Positions 8,901 through 26,319 of a DNA stretch of 64,000 bases are shown in pieces; within the stretch, counting starts at the first letter, position 1, and the number at the start of each line of letters is the position of its first letter. The position numbers were made by a program, and so were the translations under genes. Source of the DNA: Bradyrhizobium ontarionense (lineage in GTDB: Bacteria; Pseudomonadota; Alphaproteobacteria; Rhizobiales; Xanthobacteraceae); assembly GCF_021088345.1 (NCBI RefSeq), contig NZ_CP088156.1, positions 3,410,001 to 3,474,000 of the forward strand. The letters run 5' to 3'. Under the pieces are notes generated by a model, which saw nothing but the letters and a program-made list of their open reading frames with translations, was not told the origin of the DNA and searched no databases.

Positions 8901-9031
8901 CGATGATGGGCGGCATCATCGTCGGCACCGTGCTGACCCTGCTGTTCCTGCCGGCGCTCTATGTCGCCTGGTTCCGCATCAAGGCGCCGGACAGCACCGC
9001 GGCTCCCGAGGCCACGCCGCACGGCGCGTGA
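5954..9031 (+). CDS. RND family efflux transporter permease
   Basis: A 1025-residue inner-membrane proton antiporter of the AcrB/MexB type. It has the usual layout of twelve membrane helices and two large periplasmic loops, a first helix near residue 20, and the proton-relay pair Asp403-Asp404 in the fourth helix (LGLLVDDAMIAVE). The GTG start overlaps the stop of the second adaptor. No outer-membrane factor gene follows, so the pump must borrow a channel encoded elsewhere. The substrate cannot be read from sequence; the TetR context suggests drugs, detergents or plant-derived compounds. Confidence 0.93.
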   Translation: MKSFNLSDWALEHRSLVWYFMIAFMAAGLFSYLHLGREEDPAFTIKTMLIQAKWPGASAEEMTRQVTDRIEKKLEELPALDYTKSLTVPGQTTVFVNLRDTTKARDVVPTWLQVRNLINDIKGDFPSGVVGPGFNDRFGDVFGNIYAFTSDGLSQRQLRDRVEEVRAKVLTVPNVGRVDIVGAQNEVIYLEFSPRKVAALGIDQRTILTALQAQNAVSPSGVLQAGPERVAVRVSGQFTSEESLKAINLRINDRFFPLTDVATISRGYEDPPTSLFRFNGQPAIGLAIGMKAGANLLEFGDALKQEMTKVIADLPVGVGVHLVSDQPKIVEEAVGGFTKALYEAVIIVLAISFISLGVRAGLVVAISIPLVLAITFLVMAYTGISLQRISLGALIIALGLLVDDAMIAVEMMVARLEVGDSLRKAATYVYTSTAFPMLTGTLVTVAGFIPIGLNNSAAGEFTFTLFVVIAVSLVVSWIVAVLFTPLLGVTILPASLPNHHAEAGRLARMFRAVLGACMQHRWSTIIVTVLVFGLSVVGMGFVQQQFFPSSDRNELIIDFNLPQNSSIAETNAQMAKFEQEALKDNPDIDHWSTYVGSGAQRFVLSFDVQPADLSFGQIIIVTKNLEVRDRARAKLQAYLTKTFPGTDAYVHLLDIGPPVGRPVQYRVSGPDVAKAREIAQQVAGIMRSNSHLGAVVFDWMEPARVVKVDVLQDKARQLGVTSEDIANALNSVLDGTSITQVRDDIYLIDVRGRANAKERQSLETLRDLQLSGSNGQSIPLAALATLRYQIEQPEIWRRSRQPTLTLKASVVDQVQPNTVVDQLKPEIAAFNAKLPVGYNVVTGGSVEESAKSQAPIIAVVPIMLFTMATILMLQLQSFHRLFLVFAVAPLALIGVVAALLPSGAPLGFVAILGVLALIGILIRNSVILIVQIEHLRDEGRPPWEAVMEATEHRMRPIMLTAAAASLALIPIAREVFWGPMAYAMMGGIIVGTVLTLLFLPALYVAWFRIKAPDSTAAPEATPHGA

Positions 9032-9144
9032 GGCGCCGAACGGCCGGGAATCGCAGATAATTGCGTGGGATAAGCCGTCCGCGTGGGTTAAACGCCACGC
9101 GGCGGCCGGTTAGATTCGGCCTCCATGAGCGAAGGATGCGAATC

Positions 9145-10431
9145 ATGACCGATCCTCAGATCGTCTGCCCCTCCTGCCGCACCGAGATCAGGCTCACCGA
9201 GCAGCTCGCCGCGCCCTTGATTGCGGAGACCCGCCGGCAGTTCGAGAAGCAGCTTGCCGCCAAGGAGGCTGATTTCGGCCGCCGCGAGACGCAGCTGAAG
9301 GCGGCTCAGGAGCAGATCGCGCAGGCCCGCGCGGCGATCGACCAGCAGGTCGCGGCGAAGCTGAAGACCGAGCGCGCGGCGATCGCGCAGGCCGAGGCTG
9401 CGCGCGCGCGTGCCGCGCTGGCGGAAGAAATCGGCCGCGGCGAGCAGAAGCTCACCGAGCTGCACGAGATTCTCGCCGCCAAGGACGCCAAGCTGGCCGA
9501 TGCCCAGAAGGCGCAGGCCGAGATGATGCGCAAGCAGCGCGAGCTCGACGAGGCCCGTCGCGAGCTCGATCTCACGATCGAGAAGAAGGTGCAGGAGAGC
9601 CTCGTCGCCGTGCGTGACAAGGCTCGGCTCGAAGGCGAGGAGTCGCTGAAGGCCAAGGTCGCCGAGAAGGAGACCCAGATCGCCGGCATGCAGCGGCAGA
9701 TCGAGGAGCTCCGGCGCAAGGCCGAACAGGGCTCGCAGCAGCTGCAGGGCGAGGCACTCGAGATCGAGCTGGAATCGCAGTTGCGCGCGCGGTTTCCGCG
9801 CGACCTGGTCGAGCCGGTGCCGAAGGGCGAGTTCGGCGGCGACGTGCTGCATCGGGTGGTCGGCCCCGGCGGCCAGGTCTGCGGCACGATCCTGTGGGAG
9901 TCCAAGCGCACCAAGAACTGGAGCGACGGCTGGCTGGTCAAGCTGCGCGACGACCAGCGCGCGGCCAAAGCCGACATCGCGCTGATCGTCTCGACCGCGC
10001 TGCCCAAGGGCGTCGACGGCTTCGACCTGATCGACGGCGTCTGGGTCGCCGAGCCGCGCTTTGCGCTGCCGCTGTCGCTCGCGCTGCGGCAGTCGCTGAT
10101 CGACGTCGCCGGCAGCAAGCTCGCCCAGGAAGGCCAGCAGACCAAGATGGAGATGGTCTACGCCTATCTGACCGGTCCGCGCTTCCGCCACCGCATCGAT
10201 GCGATCGTCGAGCGCTTCACCGAGATGCAGTCGGATCTCGACCGCGAGCGCAAAACGATGATGCGGCTGTGGGCCAAGCGTGAGGAGCAGCTGCGTGGCG
10301 TGCTCGATTCCACCGCAGGCCTCTATGGCGATCTCCAGGGCATCGCCGGCCGCGCCATGCAGGAGATCGAGAGCCTCGACATCCTGCTGATCGAAGGCGA
10401 GGGCAACGTCAGCAGTGAAGCGGCTGAATAG
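9145..10431 (+). CDS. DUF2130 protein: zinc-ribbon-like start, coiled coil, PD-(D/E)XK-like domain
   Basis: A 428-residue protein starting at the ATG at 9145, eight bases after GAAGGA. It opens with a CPSC motif followed by an Ala/Glu/Arg-rich coiled coil (about residues 25-215). The globular C-terminal half (about 220-380) is a DUF2130 domain, in which GGDVLHRV, WESKRTKNWSDGW and KLRDDQRAAKAD resemble the D...ExK...Q core of the restriction-endonuclease fold. Function is unknown: nuclease activity is inferred from these motifs. It ends three bases from the convergent SLOG gene. Confidence 0.8.
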   Translation: MTDPQIVCPSCRTEIRLTEQLAAPLIAETRRQFEKQLAAKEADFGRRETQLKAAQEQIAQARAAIDQQVAAKLKTERAAIAQAEAARARAALAEEIGRGEQKLTELHEILAAKDAKLADAQKAQAEMMRKQRELDEARRELDLTIEKKVQESLVAVRDKARLEGEESLKAKVAEKETQIAGMQRQIEELRRKAEQGSQQLQGEALEIELESQLRARFPRDLVEPVPKGEFGGDVLHRVVGPGGQVCGTILWESKRTKNWSDGWLVKLRDDQRAAKADIALIVSTALPKGVDGFDLIDGVWVAEPRFALPLSLALRQSLIDVAGSKLAQEGQQTKMEMVYAYLTGPRFRHRIDAIVERFTEMQSDLDRERKTMMRLWAKREEQLRGVLDSTAGLYGDLQGIAGRAMQEIESLDILLIEGEGNVSSEAAE

Positions 10432-10434
10432 ATC

Positions 10435-11409
10435 TCAGGCCGACGGGATGAGCCGCGTCAGCATCGTCATGACCAGCTCGGCGATCTCAGTGTAGCTGTC
10501 GGAAACGGCGAGGCGCCTTGCCTCCTTGAGGAGGTTCGCCGCTGTGAGCCGCGCCTGGTAGTCGGCGGCGAACGGACGCACCTTGTCGATCGAGGCCCAG
10601 TAGTTCGCGAGCATGGCCTGCTCTGTCGGATCTGCCGGCTGAGGGCGCGGAACCAGGTCCTCATCGCCGATCAATCCGAGCGCCCCGGCGACATCGCGGC
10701 TGGCACCGCCGATGCCGCCGATCACGATCAGCGGCTTGTTGGCCTCCAATGTCGCCACAGCCTCGGCGGCGATGCCGGACTTGCCGTCGCCCCAGTAGCT
10801 GCCGTCGGGGTGCTTGCTCACGCCGGCGCGCCCGCCCATCATGATCCGCGCGTCGGTCTCCTTCGCCATCGAGCGCCGCATGCCGGCCAGCGGATCGCCG
10901 GTCGGCGGCGTCATAAACAGCGGCACGATCTGAGGAACGGCGCCAAGTTCGTCCGCCTTCTGGACCGTTGCGGTCCGGCTGCTGCCGACATAGACGTCGG
11001 CCATCGTTCCCGACGGCAGCAGCGTCGCAACGGTGGTCTCGTCGGACAGCAGCTTGATCTCGCTGAAGGCGCCGAGCCGCAGCGCATGCGCCCAGACCTT
11101 GTCCTTGCCTTCGCGCTGAAGATCATTGGCGCGCAGATAATGGATGAAGGGACGGCTCTTCAGCGCCTCGCCGCTGGCGCGATAGGCAGCGCCCAACTGC
11201 GTCGAGATCTCCTGGGTGAAGTTGGTCTCGGTCGGCGGCTCGATGCGGCCGCCATAGGCGATCCTGGCGCCGTGATAGACCAGCGGCGTCAGCACCGCGC
11301 TGAGCACGCGCTTGTCGTCGTTCTCGAACATGCCGAGGGCGTCGAGATCCGGCGTATCCGACACCGACAATGCGAGGGTCCACCCCTTGCTCCGGCTCGT
11401 CGCGCTCAT
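10435..11409 (-). CDS. SLOG-family nucleotide-binding protein, partner of the TIR protein
   Basis: 324 residues from the ATG at 11409, which overlaps the stop of the upstream TIR gene as ATGA; the open frame extends to 11484 inside that gene but the coupled start is preferred. Visible features are an N-terminal DTPDLDALGM segment, GARIAYGGRIEP at about residues 46-57, and Gly-rich MMGGRAG and VIGGIGGASRDVAGALG segments. These are typical of the SLOG superfamily (related to DprA and LOG), whose members bind or process nucleotides and NAD-derived molecules. In the literature SLOG domains are linked with TIR and Sir2 domains in predicted immunity systems. A sensor or effector role for a TIR-made signal is inferred, not shown. 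Confidence 0.72.
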   Translation of the reverse strand: MSATSRSKGWTLALSVSDTPDLDALGMFENDDKRVLSAVLTPLVYHGARIAYGGRIEPPTETNFTQEISTQLGAAYRASGEALKSRPFIHYLRANDLQREGKDKVWAHALRLGAFSEIKLLSDETTVATLLPSGTMADVYVGSSRTATVQKADELGAVPQIVPLFMTPPTGDPLAGMRRSMAKETDARIMMGGRAGVSKHPDGSYWGDGKSGIAAEAVATLEANKPLIVIGGIGGASRDVAGALGLIGDEDLVPRPQPADPTEQAMLANYWASIDKVRPFAADYQARLTAANLLKEARRLAVSDSYTEIAELVMTMLTRLIPSA

Positions 11410-12686
11410 GACGACAGCTCGCTGAGGGCGATCAGGCTGACCTGCGGAAACGCGGTCTCGATCAGCTCCTTCTCGTGCAGGCATATCGGCGGGTCGGGAT
11501 ACACCAACCGGATCGGGCCGTGCATACAGTGATGCACCAGCTCGGCGAGCTCCGGCGGCCGGGCGCAGACGACGATCTCACCACCGGGCGCGGGATGACT
11601 GTTGACGCGATCCTGTGCGTCCGCCGCCCACACCTCCATTCGCATCGCTTCCGACAGCAGCGCCAGCAGCACATGCTCGATGTCGGCGTCGCTGATGCTG
11701 GTCACGTCCAGCCGCTCCATTCCGCCGTCCGGCTGATAGCGGACGTCCGGCGTGCGGATCACCGGCACGTTGCCCAGATAGGGAAAGCTGCGCAGCGTTC
11801 CGCGATGCGACAGATCCCACAGCACGATCGGGCTGCCGAACTTCTTGGCCGTCAGGAGCTCCCACATGCACCAGGGACGGCCGTGATAGGCGTCGGTGAG
11901 GATGCCGAGCAGCGCGCCGCGCTTGATCGCCTGCTCGAACTGCTTGGCATAGGCACCGCCGGCCACCGTGTCGCTGGCGTCGAAGAACATCTCGACGCTG
12001 TTGACGCGGACCTCATCCGGCGTCGGGTTCGGTCTGGAGTCCCTGAAGCGCTCCAGCAACAGCGCGACGCCCTCGCCGTCCATCTTCGCATGGCTGAGAA
12101 AGATCCCGATCCGGCGCAACTCCTCGGCGGAAGTGGCCTGCCCGGTCGCGCTCTGTTCGATCATGGTCCGGTTCATGGCACGCTGCACATTGCGCTGGTG
12201 CGCCCACACCGCGCCCATCACATACATCGTGATGCGCCGGGTCCAGCGCTCCCAGCCTTGCTCCGCTTGCGGAGCGGGCGCGACGATGCCCTGGGTCGCG
12301 AGCGCATCGAATGCCGACACGCCCTGACCACGCGACGTGATCACGGGCAACAGCATGTCGGCGACGCTGCTATCTCGGATGTGCCGCTCGATGTCGGCGA
12401 CGTAATCGCCCCACTCACCCTCGCGGTTGCGCATCACGTCGTCGATCACGAGGATGACGATGTTGGAGCGCGCCGCCGCCCAGTCGATCGGCTGCGGCCT
12501 GCCGGTGTCGCGCCAGTTCGCGCTGCGCTTGCGTACGGGAATGCGGAAGCCGATTCCATCGCGCATCATGCCGAGCGCATCGAGCTGCCTATGCAGCGTA
12601 TCGGCAAGACGGCCGCCGGGATCCTCGGACGGATCCGGCCGCGCCGGCGCCCACAGCACATAGACCCGCATCGGCTCGATGGACAT
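11406..12686 (-). CDS. TIR-domain protein, candidate NAD-cleaving defence protein
   Basis: 426 residues from the ATG at 12686 (GAGG eight bases upstream). Three parts are visible. Residues about 5-115 look like a divergent TIR/flavodoxin-like module (VYVLWAPARP...SNIVILVIDD). Residues about 190-300 are a TIR domain starting GIFLSHAKMDGEG and containing RPWCMWELLTAKK, in which Cys273 and Glu276 match the C-x-x-E motif of NAD-hydrolysing bacterial TIRs. Residues about 365-426 form a conserved-looking tail (IRLVYPDPPICLHEKEL). It is the first gene of a two-gene operon with the SLOG protein. Enzymatic activity and an anti-phage role are inferred from family knowledge. Confidence 0.78.
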   Translation of the reverse strand: MSIEPMRVYVLWAPARPDPSEDPGGRLADTLHRQLDALGMMRDGIGFRIPVRKRSANWRDTGRPQPIDWAAARSNIVILVIDDVMRNREGEWGDYVADIERHIRDSSVADMLLPVITSRGQGVSAFDALATQGIVAPAPQAEQGWERWTRRITMYVMGAVWAHQRNVQRAMNRTMIEQSATGQATSAEELRRIGIFLSHAKMDGEGVALLLERFRDSRPNPTPDEVRVNSVEMFFDASDTVAGGAYAKQFEQAIKRGALLGILTDAYHGRPWCMWELLTAKKFGSPIVLWDLSHRGTLRSFPYLGNVPVIRTPDVRYQPDGGMERLDVTSISDADIEHVLLALLSEAMRMEVWAADAQDRVNSHPAPGGEIVVCARPPELAELVHHCMHGPIRLVYPDPPICLHEKELIETAFPQVSLIALSELSS

Positions 12687-12915
12687 GGCCGGCCCTCGTC
12701 GCAGCTTCGTCAGCGAAACACAACCTGAAGACGAAGACAAGCCGACGATGCGAGCCCGACGCCCCGAATGGCAACCGGATACGGCGGCGAATTTTATGGC
12801 GCGCCTATAAGCTGGTCCCGGGCGCCGTCTCGCATTCCTATGCGGCCCGGGTGCATCCTCCGTTACAATGGAGGCTGGTCCTGCGCCGGCCTGGCTCGCT
12901 CAAGGGAAAGCCGGA

Positions 12916-13116
12916 ATGTCGCTTCTGACCGCTCACCGTGAACAGGATTTCCGCGCATCATGGCTGCGTCCGGCAGAACGACGCACCGACAGCAGAGCAC
13001 GCGCCCTGCTCGGACGGCTCGCCCGCTTCGTGCTGGCGCTGACCGTGGCCGGCGGCGTCCTGACCTTGCTGGTCGCCCTGAAGACGGCGGCCTACATGTC
13101 GCATCATCCGATCTGA
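12916..13116 (+). CDS. small single-span membrane protein of unknown function
   Basis: 66 residues from the ATG at 12916, preceded by an AAGGGAAA purine stretch; an ATG at 12868 would add 16 residues. It has an Arg-rich N-terminal half and one membrane helix (ARFVLALTVAGGVLTLLVAL, about residues 36-55), ending AAYMSHHPI. It lies alone between the TIR/SLOG operon and the convergent regA gene. No family is recognised and the call rests on the plausible helix and the positive-inside charge pattern. Confidence 0.45.
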   Translation: MSLLTAHREQDFRASWLRPAERRTDSRARALLGRLARFVLALTVAGGVLTLLVALKTAAYMSHHPI

Positions 13117-13146
13117 CCAGTCGCCGCAAGCCCATCGGATCACGAG

Positions 13147-13692
13147 CTACTTCACCGGCCGCTTCTCCAGCTTGCGCGCCAGGGTACGGCGATGCATGCC
13201 GAGCCGCCGCGCGGCTTCGGAGATGTTGAAGTCGGTCTCGATCAGGGTCTGGTGGATGCGCTCCCATTCCAGCGTCTTGATCGAGGTCGAGCGTTCGGCC
13301 AGCGCGACCTGGGCATTGCCTTGGACCTTGCCTTGGGCCTTGCGGAACGCCTCCTCGATGTCGTCGGTGTTCGACGGCTTGGCGAGATAGTGGCAGGCGC
13401 CGAGCTTGATGGCCTCGACCGCGGTCGCGATGCTGGCAAAGCCGGTGAGCACCACGATCAGCATGTCCGGATCGTGCGCATGCAGCTTCTCGACGCAGAC
13501 GAGACCGGAGGCGCCGCCGAGCTTCAGGTCCACGACGGCATAGCCGGGCGACTGCGCTTTCAGGACCTCATCGACCTGCTCGAGCGAGGCCGCGATCACA
13601 GCGTCGTAGCCGCGCCGTTCGAACGAGCGCTTCAAGGTGCGCGCGAAGCCATCGTCGTCCTCGACGATCAACAGGGACCGCTCACTCTCCAC
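13147..13692 (-). CDS. regA: redox response regulator RegA/ActR/PrrA family
   Basis: 181 residues from a GTG at 13692, overlapping the end of the kinase gene and preceded by GGAGAG. Residues about 1-120 are a receiver domain with the acidic pair at EDDDG and the phosphoacceptor Asp55 (AVVDLKLGG). The C-terminus is the compact Fis-like helix-turn-helix characteristic of RegA (NISEAARRLGMHRRTLARKL). RegA-type regulators control respiratory oxidases, hydrogenase, nitrogen and carbon fixation genes in response to redox state. Encoded with its kinase directly downstream of the bo3 oxidase and SURF1 genes, so control of that operon is likely. In Bradyrhizobium the family is often called RegR. Confidence 0.9.
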   Translation of the reverse strand: MESERSLLIVEDDDGFARTLKRSFERRGYDAVIAASLEQVDEVLKAQSPGYAVVDLKLGGASGLVCVEKLHAHDPDMLIVVLTGFASIATAVEAIKLGACHYLAKPSNTDDIEEAFRKAQGKVQGNAQVALAERSTSIKTLEWERIHQTLIETDFNISEAARRLGMHRRTLARKLEKRPVK

Positions 13693-15031
13693 GGGGCTCT
13701 CCAATCGCAAGCATCGACAGCGGCAAGGATAGCCGCACGGTCGCCCCACGCCCCCGGTGATTCCAGGCTGAAACGCTGCCGCCGAGCTTGCGGATCACGT
13801 TGACGACCAGGAACAGGCCGAGCCCGCCGCCCGGACGCCCCTTGCTGGACTGATAGGGCCGCCCGAGCTGGGCCAGAATGTTCGGCTCGAAACCGGGGCC
13901 GCGGTCGCTGACCGTGAGCAGCAGCATATCGCCGTCGCGTTCGGCCAGGAACTCCACCCAGTCGCGCGAGACTTCGAAGGCGTTGTCGAGCACGTTGACG
14001 ATGGCCTGCTTCAGCGCGACGTCGGAGACGATCGCCGGATCGGAACCGAACTCGTTGCGGACCATCAGGTTGCGGGCTGATCGCGCGGCGCTCCACTCGG
14101 CGACCAGCGTGGTCAGGAACGCTTTCAACGTCGTCGGCGCCGACCCCTCGCCGCGCGCCTGCCCGGCCGAGACCAGGATGTCGGTGACGATCGACTTGCA
14201 GCGCTGCACCGCGGCTTCCATCTCCGCGAAGTCATCCGCGAGCGCCGGGTCGGCTGCAATCGCCGTCATGCGCCGCCAATCGTTCAGGATGACCGACAGC
14301 GACGCCAGGGGCGTGCCGAGCTCGTGCGCAGCCCCCGACGCGAGCAGGCCCATGCGGATGATGTGGTCCTGCTCGACGGCATGCTGGCGCAGGTCGGCGA
14401 GCTTGGTGTCGCGCTCGCGCAGGTTCCGGTTGATGCGCGTCACGAACACGACGAGCAGCACGGCGTCGAGCATGAAGCCGACGAACATGCCGGTGATGTG
14501 CAGGCTGAAGGGATCGCTGACGTGCCGATGCGGCAGTTCAAGCGGCCAATAGGAGATGGTGAGCCAGATGAAGCTGATCACGGTGAGCGCGACCAGCGAC
14601 CACGACGAGCGCGCATCGAGCAGCACGGCCCCTAACGTGACTTGCAGCAGATAGAGGCAGGTGAACGGATTGGCGGCGCCGCCGGTGAGATAGAGCTCCG
14701 ACGTCAGCGCGATGACGTCGAGCATCAAGGCGATCAGCAGGTGACGGTTGCCGACGTCGACCCGACGGCGCAGCCAGATGTGGCTGCCGACGTTCAGCGC
14801 CACCAGCGCGCAGACCACGGCCGCCATCGGCAGCAGCGGCAGCGCGATGCCGAACCAGAAGGTGACGAAGGCGACGGTCACGATCTGGCCGACGACCGCG
14901 ATCCAGCGCAGCTGGATCAGGAGCACCATGTTCTTGCGGTTGGTCGCGTCCCTGGTCGGCAGCGGCGCGCTGATCTCCGGTGTGGCGATCGCAGCCACCG
15001 CCCCCAGCGGCAGATTCGGCGCCTCGTTCAT
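13682..15031 (-). CDS. regB: redox-sensing histidine kinase RegB/ActS/PrrB family
   Basis: 449 residues from the ATG at 15031; upstream in-frame sequence is low complexity. Six membrane helices lie in residues about 36-200, with the quinone-site motif GGAANPF at 117-123. The H-box AAHELGTPLA gives His236 as the phosphorylation site, and QRCKSIV places Cys278 at the conserved redox-active cysteine of RegB. The C-terminal ATPase has GLGLFLVVNV. Known RegB proteins sense the oxidation state of the ubiquinone pool and phosphorylate RegA when conditions are reducing. It overlaps regA and follows the SURF1 gene by about 55 bases. Confidence 0.92.
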   Translation of the reverse strand: MNEAPNLPLGAVAAIATPEISAPLPTRDATNRKNMVLLIQLRWIAVVGQIVTVAFVTFWFGIALPLLPMAAVVCALVALNVGSHIWLRRRVDVGNRHLLIALMLDVIALTSELYLTGGAANPFTCLYLLQVTLGAVLLDARSSWSLVALTVISFIWLTISYWPLELPHRHVSDPFSLHITGMFVGFMLDAVLLVVFVTRINRNLRERDTKLADLRQHAVEQDHIIRMGLLASGAAHELGTPLASLSVILNDWRRMTAIAADPALADDFAEMEAAVQRCKSIVTDILVSAGQARGEGSAPTTLKAFLTTLVAEWSAARSARNLMVRNEFGSDPAIVSDVALKQAIVNVLDNAFEVSRDWVEFLAERDGDMLLLTVSDRGPGFEPNILAQLGRPYQSSKGRPGGGLGLFLVVNVIRKLGGSVSAWNHRGRGATVRLSLPLSMLAIGEPRGE

Positions 15032-21555: not shown

Positions 21556-21714
21556 GGAGCGGCGGGATCCTGCCGGACAAGGCGACGATACGTCTCATCA
21601 GACGGTCAGAGGTCGCGTCGCAGGCCCTGGCACCGCCTGCCGTGCCCATCTCGAGATGACAACCTCCGGTGACTTGCACCGACTCTTGAGCTAAAGTTGC
21701 TTGGGAGCGGTGAC

Positions 21715-24700
21715 ATGCCGGTTATTTTCATAAGTCATAGTTCGAAGGACAAGACCGACGCCGAACACCTGCGCGATGAGCTGCGTGAGGCTGGTTTTCG
21801 CGACGTCTTCATTGACAATCATTCAATTCTTCCCGGGCAGCAGTGGGAAACCCTGCTCTATCAGAAGCTCCGGTCGTGCGCGGCAGTCATCGCGCTCGTC
21901 AGCCAGCACTTCAACGATTCGAAATGGTGCTTCGCCGAGCTGACTCATGCCAAGGCCCTGGGCCGTCCGATCATCCCCCTGCTGCTCGATGATGCCGAGC
22001 TGCCGCCGATCCTTCGCTATGCCCAGTTTCAGTCTGCGACGATCGACCGGCAGAGTATGCTCACGAGGCTCCTGGCCGGGCTCGAGGCCATCGGCATTCG
22101 CGCCAACGACAGCATGGCCTGGAATCCGACGCGGCCGCCCTACCCTGGTCTGTCCGCCTTCGACGCCGACGACGCCGGCGTCTACTTCGGACGCGAGAAG
22201 GACATCCGCGCCATTCTCGATCGCATTCACGATCTGGCGACGTTTGGCTCCGCCCCGCGTGCACTGATCGTGCTCGGAGCCTCCGGCACCGGCAAGTCGT
22301 CGCTGCTTCGGGCAGGCATTCTGCCAAGGCTGCGGCTGGATCCCCGCCGCTGGCTGGTGCTCCCGCCTGTCAGGCCGTCGCTGGAGCCGCTGTCGAAGCT
22401 TGCGGAAACGATCTCGGCCCTGCTTGCGACGTCGCCGCGGCCACGGACTCCGGGCCAGGTCAGCGAGGACTTCAAGTCGCAGGACGAACTTCGCGCGACG
22501 CTGCGTGCCCTCGTCGCCGACGATGCGGATACCACGATCGTCGTCATGATCGATCAGCTGGAGGAGCTGGCATCTCCCGCCGCCGAGGAAGGGCTGCCGG
22601 CGTGGCTGCTCAACGTGCTCGACATCGACCATCCGCGTCTCGTCGTGCTTGGATCATTGCGGTCGGACCGCGTCGCCTCGGTCGAAAAGACCGTCCCGCT
22701 GCTGATGCGGGGGCGCTTGGTCACGATCGCTCCGCTCAGCGAAAGCGAACTGTTGCGCACCATCACGGCGCCTGCGGAGACCGCCGGGCTACAGCTCGAT
22801 CCGGATTTGGCACAGGAGCTGCTGCAGGACGTGCGTGCACGCCAGGCATTGCCGCTCCTTGCCTTTGCTCTCCGTGAATTATGGGAACGCCGCTCAGCCG
22901 AAGGGCGGTTGCTCACCGCGAGCTATGTCACCGATCTCGGCCGGATCGAAGGCGCGGTGAAGCGAGCGGCAGAAGCGGCGACGAAGTCGGTGATCGACAA
23001 TCCCGCGGACGCGGAGGCGCTCCGGATTGCGCTGCTGGAAATGATCCAGATCTCCACCGACGGCTCCATCCTCAAGCGGCAGGCCTTGCGGTCCGGCCTC
23101 CCTGCACAATCGACGCGGGGAATCGACGCGCTCGAAGCGGCCCGCCTGCTCGTTGCTGATGGCGATTTCGTCGAGCCTGCCCACGAGGCTCTGTTCGGCG
23201 CCTGGAACCGGCTCGCGGACTGGGTCAAGGAAGCGCGCGCCGCGCTGATGGTCCGCACGGAGGCGCAGACGGACGCCGCGTTGTGGGAAAGCAGCGGCCG
23301 GCGTCCCGAGTATCTCTGGGCCGAGGCGCGGCTCGATCGCGCCAAGCGTCTCCTTGCCACCCAACGCATCGGCGCCACCGACAAATCGGCAAGCTTCCTC
23401 GTAGCATCGACGAAAGCGGTCGAGGAGCAACATCGAAAGGACCTTGCTGAACGCGACCGCGAGCTGACGCGGCTTCGCCGTCAACGCCTGATCGTCGGAG
23501 GCTTTGCCGGCGGCGCCCTGGCCGCGGCAGCCGTTGCGATCAGCTTCTACATCGACGCCAGAAACGCCGAGGCTGAGAGCAACAACTCGCTTCGGACGTC
23601 GCGGCTGCAGACGGCGAGGGTTGCCTGTCGTGACGTCACGGTCGGGGCCAGGGACACGGGCATCCAGGCGCTGCAGGAGGCAGCCAAGATCAGGCCTGGC
23701 GACGATCTGAGGACGGCCCTCGTCGATTGCCTGCAGCGCCCCGGACTGCGCGAGTTGAGCGAACGGCAGGGTGTCAGCGAGCCTCCCTCCCTCAAGCCCG
23801 GAGACCCGCTCGTCGATCAGGTCGGGACAACCAAGGCGACGCTGCGCCCGGCGGCGGAGAAGGACAAGTTCATCATTGCGGTCGAGCGCGATGGAGCGGC
23901 GCAGGCCGCCTGGCCGTTGGTGGCGTCCGAGGCAGATTCGCTGCGTCTTTCACCGGATGGCGCCATGGTTGGAGTGATGCGGCAGGGGTTCGGCCTTGCC
24001 GATCAGACCTTGGAAGTTTTCGAGAGCCGGACCGGAAAAACGCTTTGGTCGTTCCGGGTCGAGACGGCCAGCCTCGGACATTGGTCAGCTTCAGCCGGGC
24101 GCATTTCCTTCAGCGCGTCCGGACGCTACATCGCTGCCGCTGGAAACGCAGGCTCGATTCTCGCCTGGGATCTGTCCCCGACCAACGGCCCGGTGGCTGC
24201 ACTCCAGTCACGTCCTTTCTCGGACCAGGCCATGCTGACCGCCGTTTCGCCCGACGGCCGATGGGTTGCAGCGATGGACGAGAAGGACAATCTTGTCGTC
24301 GTCGAGACGGAGACGAATGAGGTGGTCGGCACCGCCCCGCATGCGGGAACGACACAGGCATTCAACTCGTCGGTTTTGGAATGGACCAGTCAAGACCGCA
24401 TCGTGGTTGGAGCCAAGCAATGGCAGTGGCTGCCGCCGGTCGATCGCGGCTTCTGGGCGAGGTCCAACATTGGGCGCCAGCGAAGCATCAGGGATGTCGT
24501 ATTCGGGCCCCAGGGAACGATGCTGGGAGTTGCCACGGAATATGGCGGAATGCCCTATGTCCTGAATATCTCGGCGCGTGAAGCCAGGATGCACAGGCCG
24601 TTGGCGACGAATGGTGAGTTCCCGTCAGGAGTCGAAAGCCTGGCCTTTTCCGGCTTGAACGGGTCGGTGTGCGGAGCCCGGCTCTCTGCCATCCTATGCT

Positions 24701-26319
24701 GGCAGGTGGATTCCGGTTCGGCACAGGTGTTGTCGGACAACAATTTCAGCCGCTGGTACCGGCAATTGAACGCAGACGATGACCGGGTGGTGGCCGCGGG
24801 CGAACGCAACATCACTCTGCTTGAGGCGCTGGACATTAAGGGAAACCTGCTGTGGCAACGGACGATTGAGCGGACGAGTATGTTCGGATTGAAGGCCGTG
24901 TTCGACGATGCGGGTCAGCGCATGGCGTTCAGAAGTACGGACAGCTCGACATCGTTGGACGTGATCGCCCTGACCGATGGCGCCACCGTCGAGACCCATC
25001 GCAAGGACGACCCCAACGAGGCTCTTCTTCCCGTCAGCCTGGGTGATGGTTTTGCGCTGCTCGACACCGAGGATGTCAGTCTTCGCGCGCTTTCCGATGG
25101 GGCGCTCCTGTCCGGTCCCTATGCCAAGTCGGACGACGGCCGCATCAATTCCGACATGGTCGTGCGGGGCAAGGCCATCGTCGAGCGGTCAAGGACTGGA
25201 CAGATGACGTTCTGGACCATTGGAGGCAGCCGGTGCAGCCCCAAGAGCGTCGTGCAACCGCGCAATCAAGCGATTGCGCTCAGCTCGTCCGGGGCTCACT
25301 TCGCCGCCTTCGATGGCGAGGTCCTCAAGGTCTGGACCACAGCCACGTGCGAGGCGGTCGATGTTCCGACCAGTGCGGACGGATCGAGCATCTCGAGCCT
25401 GACGTTCACGCCGGATGATCAGGAGATCCGCTTCCGCAGCGCCTCCAACGAAATCACGACCTACACGCTCGGGACCAAGCAGGTCAGCCGTACGGTCTTC
25501 AAGCCGTTTGCCAGCTGCGAATTCGAGGTCGGCAGCGGCTGGAGCGGCGACGCCGGCACGCTCTGGCAGGCTTGCAGAGCAGGCAAGTCGACCACCGTGA
25601 AGGCGTGGCGCGCGACCGATGGCGGCTCGGCGTTCGAGGTGACGGTCGGGGCAGAAAGCCAACGCGGCGTCACTGTCCTGGTCGATCCCAAGCAGCACAC
25701 CATCATCGTGAGGCGAGAACTCACGAAACCCGGAATTTGGGGCTGGTCGCTTCCGGGAGGAAGCACGACGGAAACGGATCTCTGCAGATCGGTTGTTGCT
25801 GTCGAGGGCAGCGCGAAGGTTCAGCTCTTCGATCGCGGAGCCAGCGCAGCTTTTTTCTCGCAAGCCGGGAAGGACGGAGCCCAGATCAATCTGAACATGG
25901 TCGATACCAGATCGTGCAAGTCGAGCCCGGTCACGCTGCCCTCTGCGGATGCCGTTCTCGGGACAACCTCTTCGGGCGCATTCGTCGTCTCCTCCAGCAC
26001 ATCGATCAAGGCGGTGTCCCGCGATGGCCAGGTCGAATGGACGTCGCTCGAAACCGCCGGCCGGATCCGGCGCTCGGCCTTGGCGGCCGACGGAAAGCTG
26101 GTCGCCGCAGCACTGGACGATGGCTCGATTGCGGTCGGAACGCCTGGAAGAGCCGAACCGATCTTCCGGTTTACGACCGGCCCCGGTGAGGTGAACGCAC
26201 TGGCACTCTCGCCCGATGGCTCATGGCTGGCCGCAGGCACGGAAGCCGGCCGGGTGCATCTGTGGCCGCTGGCCGCATTGGACGCGGACGTGGCCGCGAC
26301 GTTCCGCGCCGACCACTAG
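21715..26319 (+). CDS. TIR-STAND ATPase-transmembrane-WD40 protein, candidate immune or signalling receptor
   Basis: 1534 residues from the ATG at 21715 (GGGAG seven bases upstream; a TTG at 21697 is the alternative). Residues about 1-128 are a TIR domain (FISHSSKDKTDAEHLRDEL) with the catalytic pattern SKWCFAEL giving Glu75. Residues about 142-590 are a STAND-type NTPase of the nSTAND1 kind: YPGLSAFDADDAGVYFGRE, Walker A GASGTGKSS near 188-196, and Walker B VVMIDQLEEL near 276-285. A membrane helix at about 591-611 is followed by a degenerate beta-propeller region (about 740-1530, for example LALSPDGSWLAAGTEAG). The architecture is sensor-switch-TIR effector; ligand and target are unknown. 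Confidence 0.88.
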   Translation: MPVIFISHSSKDKTDAEHLRDELREAGFRDVFIDNHSILPGQQWETLLYQKLRSCAAVIALVSQHFNDSKWCFAELTHAKALGRPIIPLLLDDAELPPILRYAQFQSATIDRQSMLTRLLAGLEAIGIRANDSMAWNPTRPPYPGLSAFDADDAGVYFGREKDIRAILDRIHDLATFGSAPRALIVLGASGTGKSSLLRAGILPRLRLDPRRWLVLPPVRPSLEPLSKLAETISALLATSPRPRTPGQVSEDFKSQDELRATLRALVADDADTTIVVMIDQLEELASPAAEEGLPAWLLNVLDIDHPRLVVLGSLRSDRVASVEKTVPLLMRGRLVTIAPLSESELLRTITAPAETAGLQLDPDLAQELLQDVRARQALPLLAFALRELWERRSAEGRLLTASYVTDLGRIEGAVKRAAEAATKSVIDNPADAEALRIALLEMIQISTDGSILKRQALRSGLPAQSTRGIDALEAARLLVADGDFVEPAHEALFGAWNRLADWVKEARAALMVRTEAQTDAALWESSGRRPEYLWAEARLDRAKRLLATQRIGATDKSASFLVASTKAVEEQHRKDLAERDRELTRLRRQRLIVGGFAGGALAAAAVAISFYIDARNAEAESNNSLRTSRLQTARVACRDVTVGARDTGIQALQEAAKIRPGDDLRTALVDCLQRPGLRELSERQGVSEPPSLKPGDPLVDQVGTTKATLRPAAEKDKFIIAVERDGAAQAAWPLVASEADSLRLSPDGAMVGVMRQGFGLADQTLEVFESRTGKTLWSFRVETASLGHWSASAGRISFSASGRYIAAAGNAGSILAWDLSPTNGPVAALQSRPFSDQAMLTAVSPDGRWVAAMDEKDNLVVVETETNEVVGTAPHAGTTQAFNSSVLEWTSQDRIVVGAKQWQWLPPVDRGFWARSNIGRQRSIRDVVFGPQGTMLGVATEYGGMPYVLNISAREARMHRPLATNGEFPSGVESLAFSGLNGSVCGARLSAILCWQVDSGSAQVLSDNNFSRWYRQLNADDDRVVAAGERNITLLEALDIKGNLLWQRTIERTSMFGLKAVFDDAGQRMAFRSTDSSTSLDVIALTDGATVETHRKDDPNEALLPVSLGDGFALLDTEDVSLRALSDGALLSGPYAKSDDGRINSDMVVRGKAIVERSRTGQMTFWTIGGSRCSPKSVVQPRNQAIALSSSGAHFAAFDGEVLKVWTTATCEAVDVPTSADGSSISSLTFTPDDQEIRFRSASNEITTYTLGTKQVSRTVFKPFASCEFEVGSGWSGDAGTLWQACRAGKSTTVKAWRATDGGSAFEVTVGAESQRGVTVLVDPKQHTIIVRRELTKPGIWGWSLPGGSTTETDLCRSVVAVEGSAKVQLFDRGASAAFFSQAGKDGAQINLNMVDTRSCKSSPVTLPSADAVLGTTSSGAFVVSSSTSIKAVSRDGQVEWTSLETAGRIRRSALAADGKLVAAALDDGSIAVGTPGRAEPIFRFTTGPGEVNALALSPDGSWLAAGTEAGRVHLWPLAALDADVAATFRADH

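Follow-up and report, generated by a model that had tools for sequence, protein, structure and literature searches.

The window analysed here, a 64,000-nucleotide stretch of the Bradyrhizobium ontarionense genome (contig NZ_CP088156.1, positions 3,410,001 to 3,474,000), carries two overlapping genes that encode a TIR protein and a SLOG protein. The genome is a single contig of 8,435,845 bases, and both genes lie on its minus strand. The gene for the TIR protein (426 residues; 11406..12686) runs into that for the SLOG protein (324 residues; 10435..11409) through an ATGA stop/start overlap at 11406..11409, exactly as an earlier sequence-only reading of the locus had placed it. A longer SLOG frame opens at ATG 11484, but the start at 11409 is favoured because the N-termini of relatives agree with it. 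The SLOG protein belongs to the Pfam family SLOG cluster2, PF18163 (86.6 bits, where the cut-off is 25.3; E 2.6e-24, in two stretches), while the TIR protein matches TIR_2 and TIR with E values near 1e-3, under the curated cut-offs. Neither protein is matched by PADLOC v2 or NCBIfam. Relatives number 37 for the SLOG protein at E 1e-3, the query counted in, and 724 for the TIR protein, the best 120 of which were listed.

The TIR protein combines a central TIR domain with additional modules on either side. An N-terminal alpha/beta module (residues 1-116; 12339..12686, minus) is modelled with predicted local distance difference test scores of 68-95 in blocks of ten, and the TIR domain (residues 193-349; 11640..12110, minus) is followed by a long helix and a C-terminal unit (residues 364-426; 11409..11597, minus). 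C273-M-W-E276 (11859..11870, minus) lies in an RPWC-MW-E context, and both C273 and E276 are invariant in a 50-row alignment drawn from the 120 listed matches, with fragments and fusions omitted. E276 is presumably the counterpart of SARM1 E642, and by the same analogy we take the glutamate, not the cysteine, to be catalytic; the C-x-x-E motif proposed earlier is thus conserved as described, with the putative catalytic role narrowed to its glutamate. A TIR fold with a conserved putative catalytic glutamate predicts nicotinamide adenine dinucleotide (NAD+) hydrolysis, or NADase activity, despite the Pfam scores. The fold search covered residues 190-349 almost exclusively. Cat1 and a TIR-SAVED structure turned up in the searches, and the top five Foldseek rows for the TIR model, four GTPases and an isomerase, were disregarded at root-mean-square deviations of 17-20 Å. 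The N-terminal module had been described as TIR-like. An alpha/beta unit is indeed present in the model, but kinship to the TIR domain finds no support (hhalign probability 0.5%, not significant), and the C-terminal module likewise shows no significant relation to the TIR domain by hhalign. The distinct C-terminal tail, by contrast, is borne out as a conserved beta-alpha-beta-alpha-beta unit in which YPDPP (Y396-P400) and E405 are invariant in 50/50 rows.

The assignment of the second protein to the SLOG superfamily is strong, and is upheld by a predicted model with a Rossmann-like SLOG fold whose closest structural matches are ThsA sensor domains. A search of the SLOG profile against the sequences of solved structures returned three weak matches (E 0.35 or worse). 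LOG enzymes carry the motif PGGxGTxxE, which is not found in the SLOG protein; a Gly-rich GGIGGASRD stands there instead and is mostly retained in close relatives. R238 and D239 are both kept in just 2 of 11 fusions, judged by eye from the alignment. A predicted ligand-pocket stretch (10762..10878, minus) contains R178, R194 and E216, which by topology and motif match would correspond to ThsA R371, K388 and E403, residues whose roles are described in PMC10022894. Across 41 rows, R178 is conserved in 39, R194 as R or K in 38 and E216 in all 41; if the equivalence holds, these would be pocket positions for a cyclic ADP-ribose (cADPR) isomer.

The TIR and SLOG genes belong together and are co-inherited. 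A scan of genome contigs gave just two loci, and gene context comes mainly from genome searches and plasmids. A TIR-only query matches 10 of 72,556 plasmid records, eight covering 80% of the protein or more and two partially; all eight near-full-length matches have SLOG, as the next gene in five and fused in three. Within the genus, the TIR query at E <= 1e-10 finds 3 of 265 genomes (own included), each with PF18163 adjoining or fused, and a fourth match falls only on the TIR domain that the TIR-STAND protein of the window carries. Homologues of both genes therefore co-occur in other genomes, as the earlier reading had anticipated; Bradyrhizobium sp. HKCCYLS2038, for instance, holds both (locus tags 29180 and 29185). 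Among loci holding relatives of the pair, tblastn recovers TIR in 18/18 and, at E 1e-5, SLOG in 16/18. The other two SLOGs, those of L021 and L059, have diverged beyond the reach of tblastn at this threshold, yet match PF18163. Among the protein matches, 10 of 36 other SLOG clusters have a longest contig equal in length to that of a listed TIR match, which is suggestive only. Phage records returned no match for the TIR protein; the SLOG protein was not searched there.

Querying with the SLOG family reveals a wider range of layouts. The family occurs in 10/265 genus genomes and 7/398 phylum genomes (own included in both), and the 15 other genomes correspond to loci L021 to L035. A window-type TIR adjoins or is fused to SLOG in six (L021, L022, L030, L031, L032 and L033), SLOG is fused to a patatin in six (L025, L026, L028, L029, L034 and L035), and the remaining three hold a SLOG-AAA protein (L023), a different TIR–SLOG pair (L024) and a short ambiguous frame (L027). 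At L023:6429-8447 the AAA ATPase is fused to a PF18163 SLOG; the pair at L024:8702-10770, in another genus genome, also has an ATGA overlap. At L022:5199-6116, stops interrupt the TIR relative upstream of an open SLOG, possibly a decaying copy. The overlap is common to 9 of 13 other split pairs (L013, L014, L022, L031, L033, L055, L058, L075 and L076), and is lacking in the second pair of L014 and in L032, L053 and L054. At least five changes between fused and split forms are implied by a quick 71-row tree in which 41 rows are listed matches classed as split from length alone and several long branches are unsure.

Many relatives lie close to genes of the ThsB type. In 15 records holding relatives, the PF08937 (ThsB_TIR) profile matches within 10 kb in eight: all seven plasmids searched, including a 22.6-kb circle whose start had to be crossed to measure the distance, and chromosome G542. 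In W01, W02, W06 and W07 the pair and the match are less than 0.3 kb apart; G054 has a weak match at 12 kb. A TIR_2 search of eight genomes and one plasmid finds another TIR gene no more than 10 kb away in G054, G542, G669 and W08, and none within 10 kb on the pair's contig in G106, G294, G320, G365 and G668. DNA relatives of the Klebsiella TIR–SLOG genes occur in 12 of 5426 complete E. coli genomes, at about 74% identity in the ten listed, and the two loci viewed share the order unknown–ThsB–ThsB–TIR–SLOG (Pfam and PADLOC run on L076). The row opens with a 242-residue protein (L076:8079-8807) that has no Pfam match. The window's genome contains 15 TIR_2 matches, 14 above the cut-off, and the pair's own TIR is not among them; some fall in short frames of 214-224 residues, so a signal maker from another TIR family is possible.

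At a probability of about one half, the two genes form one ThsA-like immune effector divided over two chains, with TIR replacing SIR2 and a cADPR-type signal gating the enzyme. This reading is preferred because a NADase-type domain precedes SLOG in the fusions, the SLOG model is ThsA-like, the TIR is SARM1-like and ThsB lies near relatives. The SLOG protein would bind a cADPR-type messenger and hold the TIR protein silent until that messenger comes. The TIR protein, occupying the place of SIR2 in type I Thoeris ThsA, would once released assemble and destroy NAD+, and the loss of NAD+ would halt phage growth by abortive infection. Through the ATGA overlap the two chains would be produced in step, the dangerous enzyme along with its brake. 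Adjoining ThsB-type TIR proteins would supply the messenger in many relatives; since the window's genome has no PF08937 gene, an unlinked TIR protein or the TIR protein itself would have to supply it there.

Several results pull the other way. The main weakness is the absent ThsB in the window's genome, where the PF08937 profile search returned 0 matches, and 7 of the 15 records with relatives also lack a PF08937 match within 10 kb (G054, G106, G294, G320, G365, G668 and G669). TIR scores alone do not separate an effector from a signal maker, and in the related SLOG–patatin loci the TIR protein seemingly plays the ThsB part. Foldseek alone gives no SLOG match at E <= 0.001 (best TRPM2 at 3.5e-3, ThsA at 0.037), and a profile comparison between the SLOG alignment and ThsA, for which just two SLOG rows served, is not significant (probability 0.5%). 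Should the split-effector reading be right, a TIR killer would be gated by a ThsA-type SLOG, often beside TIR-type signal makers, placing TIR at both ends of the pathway. The split form would make the gating subunit testable separately, and the E. coli operon and plasmid copies are tractable systems for phage tests and a messenger search.

The sequence-only reading had cast the TIR protein as signal maker and SLOG as its reader. These roles stay alive through the SLOG–patatin loci, which have another killer and a TIR that may make the signal, although relatives of the pair suggest a combined TIR and SLOG effector with separate ThsB makers. Under this alternative, a fairly unlikely one, the TIR protein would be a messenger synthase in the ThsB role, SLOG a reader or regulator, and the killing effector encoded elsewhere. 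Distant PF18163 proteins do carry a fused patatin phospholipase (in L029 recognised by phmmer only), a TIR gene lies in the examined stretch of four of the six SLOG-patatin loci (L025, L029, L034 and L035; not L026 or L028), and L025 presents SLOG-patatin, TIR and a lone SLOG in a row. Next to the window-type TIR, however, neither a patatin nor another effector was recognised, whereas a separate ThsB often is, and the direct TIR-SLOG fusions resemble effectors. The pair's SLOG is moreover the sole PF18163 locus of a genome in which PF18185 finds no match; these two were the SLOG families searched. Slightly less likely still is a closed loop in which the TIR protein senses phage by its own N- or C-terminal module and makes a little messenger, and SLOG, once it has bound this product, brings the very TIR that made it to full activity, with no need of ThsB. 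Such a two-chain switch, in which an infection-sensing TIR becomes a runaway NADase through its own ADP-ribose-derived product, would amount to Thoeris with no ThsB, a single TIR protein serving as sensor, signal maker and executioner and a trans-acting SLOG as both amplifier and brake. The missing PF08937, the conserved extra modules of the TIR protein and the five of eight other genomes without a further TIR within 10 kb (G106, G294, G320, G365 and G668) favour it; the genome's 15 TIR_2 matches outside the pair, which could give the signal, and the neighbouring clades with ThsB next door (tree and PF08937 search) do not.

The missing LOG motif, the poor joint retention of R238 and D239 in fusions and the ThsA sensor domains as top structural matches make it improbable that the SLOG protein is itself an effector enzyme, such as a LOG-like nucleotide or nucleoside hydrolase, switched on by TIR. 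Enzymes do exist within the SLOG superfamily, according to PMC9503650, and the retained GGIGGASRD would suit one. Still less probable is a non-immune NAD/ADP-ribose signalling pair or the decaying remnant of an immune system. The GC content of the pair is unremarkable (66.8% against a mean of 65.7% for same-size stretches), the relative in G106 has stop codons within its TIR, and the pair adjoins respiratory genes; the neighbourhood survey finds TIR and SLOG together but the window's pair in no clear defence island. Against this stand two intact genes with putative catalytic and pocket residues present, a patchy distribution in the genus, and some relatives on plasmids and beside insertion sequence (IS) elements, integrases or mobilisation genes. 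The upstream cyoABCD–SURF1–kinase–regulator block is kept in all eight relatives retrieved, out of 12 others that have the kinase, while past the regulator none of seven relatives with enough sequence holds the pair, DUF2130 or the RND genes (E 1e-15); the pair therefore borders a variable region, which also counts against these readings.

A convergent DUF2130 gene (9151-10431, plus) ends three bases from the SLOG stop; among 41 genomes searched, 10 (the window's own counted) match its protein at E<=1e-50. It was rejected as a third component because it is convergent and tblastn finds it in 0/18 loci holding pair relatives. The TIR_2 match nearest the pair, 9 kb away, belongs to a 1540-residue TIR–nSTAND1–WD40 protein (21697-26319, plus; TIR_2 E 6e-24, nSTAND1 E 2e-82), likely a separate STAND-type defence or signalling protein. 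Past the window's end by 2.8-4.9 kb (L096:2775-4888), a TIR protein is followed by a 500-residue protein that begins like a P-loop ATPase (KGGVGRS) and has a TIR domain at its C-terminus; close to the Rhizobium pair, L075:8933-12474 holds a similar TIR plus KGGTGRS pair. The stretch 10300-13300 showed no promoter or terminator pattern, no Rfam family reached the gathering threshold in 9000-14500, and no tRNA was found in the window.

TIR–SLOG immunity is already known as a class, and the survey cited for it is reportedly Burroughs 2015. Calling the pair undescribed was therefore too strong: a Pfam family exists for its SLOG, and PMC9503650 and PMC7824862, both citing an earlier comparative survey, mention TIR-SLOG or SLOG-TIR systems with the same two domains and a predicted immune role. 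Their accessible passages give no gene layout, split pair or ThsB partner, and the accessible portions of PMC7272460, PMC10022894, PMC11204291, PMC9503650, PMC12948488 and PMC10952713 describe no split TIR–SLOG pair. PMC12847820 names Thoeris types I, II and IV, which makes the existence of a type III likely, and this may be the present layout; a literature search on such a type found no paper. There is a fair chance that the split layout has already been named.

The effectors of Thoeris in the published accounts, as far as these are accessible, are SIR2, membrane or caspase-like killers. The pair resembles Thoeris type I, formed by ThsA (SIR2-SLOG) and ThsB (TIR), in its predicted SLOG fold and pocket positions, in the NADase-type domain that precedes SLOG in fused relatives and in the ThsB-type TIR beside many relatives. 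It differs in having TIR, not SIR2, a domain that Pfam finds in neither protein, as had been noted; in being two chains where ThsA is one; in a SLOG of cluster2 (PF18163) instead of STALD (PF18185); and in a genome without a PF08937 gene. The usual SIR2-SLOG/ThsB description does not cover the pair, which agrees with the earlier placement of it as a Thoeris-like signalling variant. The SLOG-patatin loci with TIR (L025, L029, L034 and L035) likewise set a PF18163 SLOG beside a TIR with an extra N-terminal stretch, but there SLOG bears a phospholipase effector and the TIR seemingly makes the signal. These loci are possibly a Thoeris-like system with a phospholipase effector, on which no paper was found in the literature searched. 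In the TIR-STING, TIR-SAVED and TIR-CARF effectors of cyclic-oligonucleotide-based antiphage signalling systems (CBASS) and CRISPR, a ligand-sensing domain gates a TIR NADase, as is proposed here; those effectors sense cyclic oligonucleotides, whereas the sensor of the Bradyrhizobium pair has a predicted ThsA-like SLOG fold.
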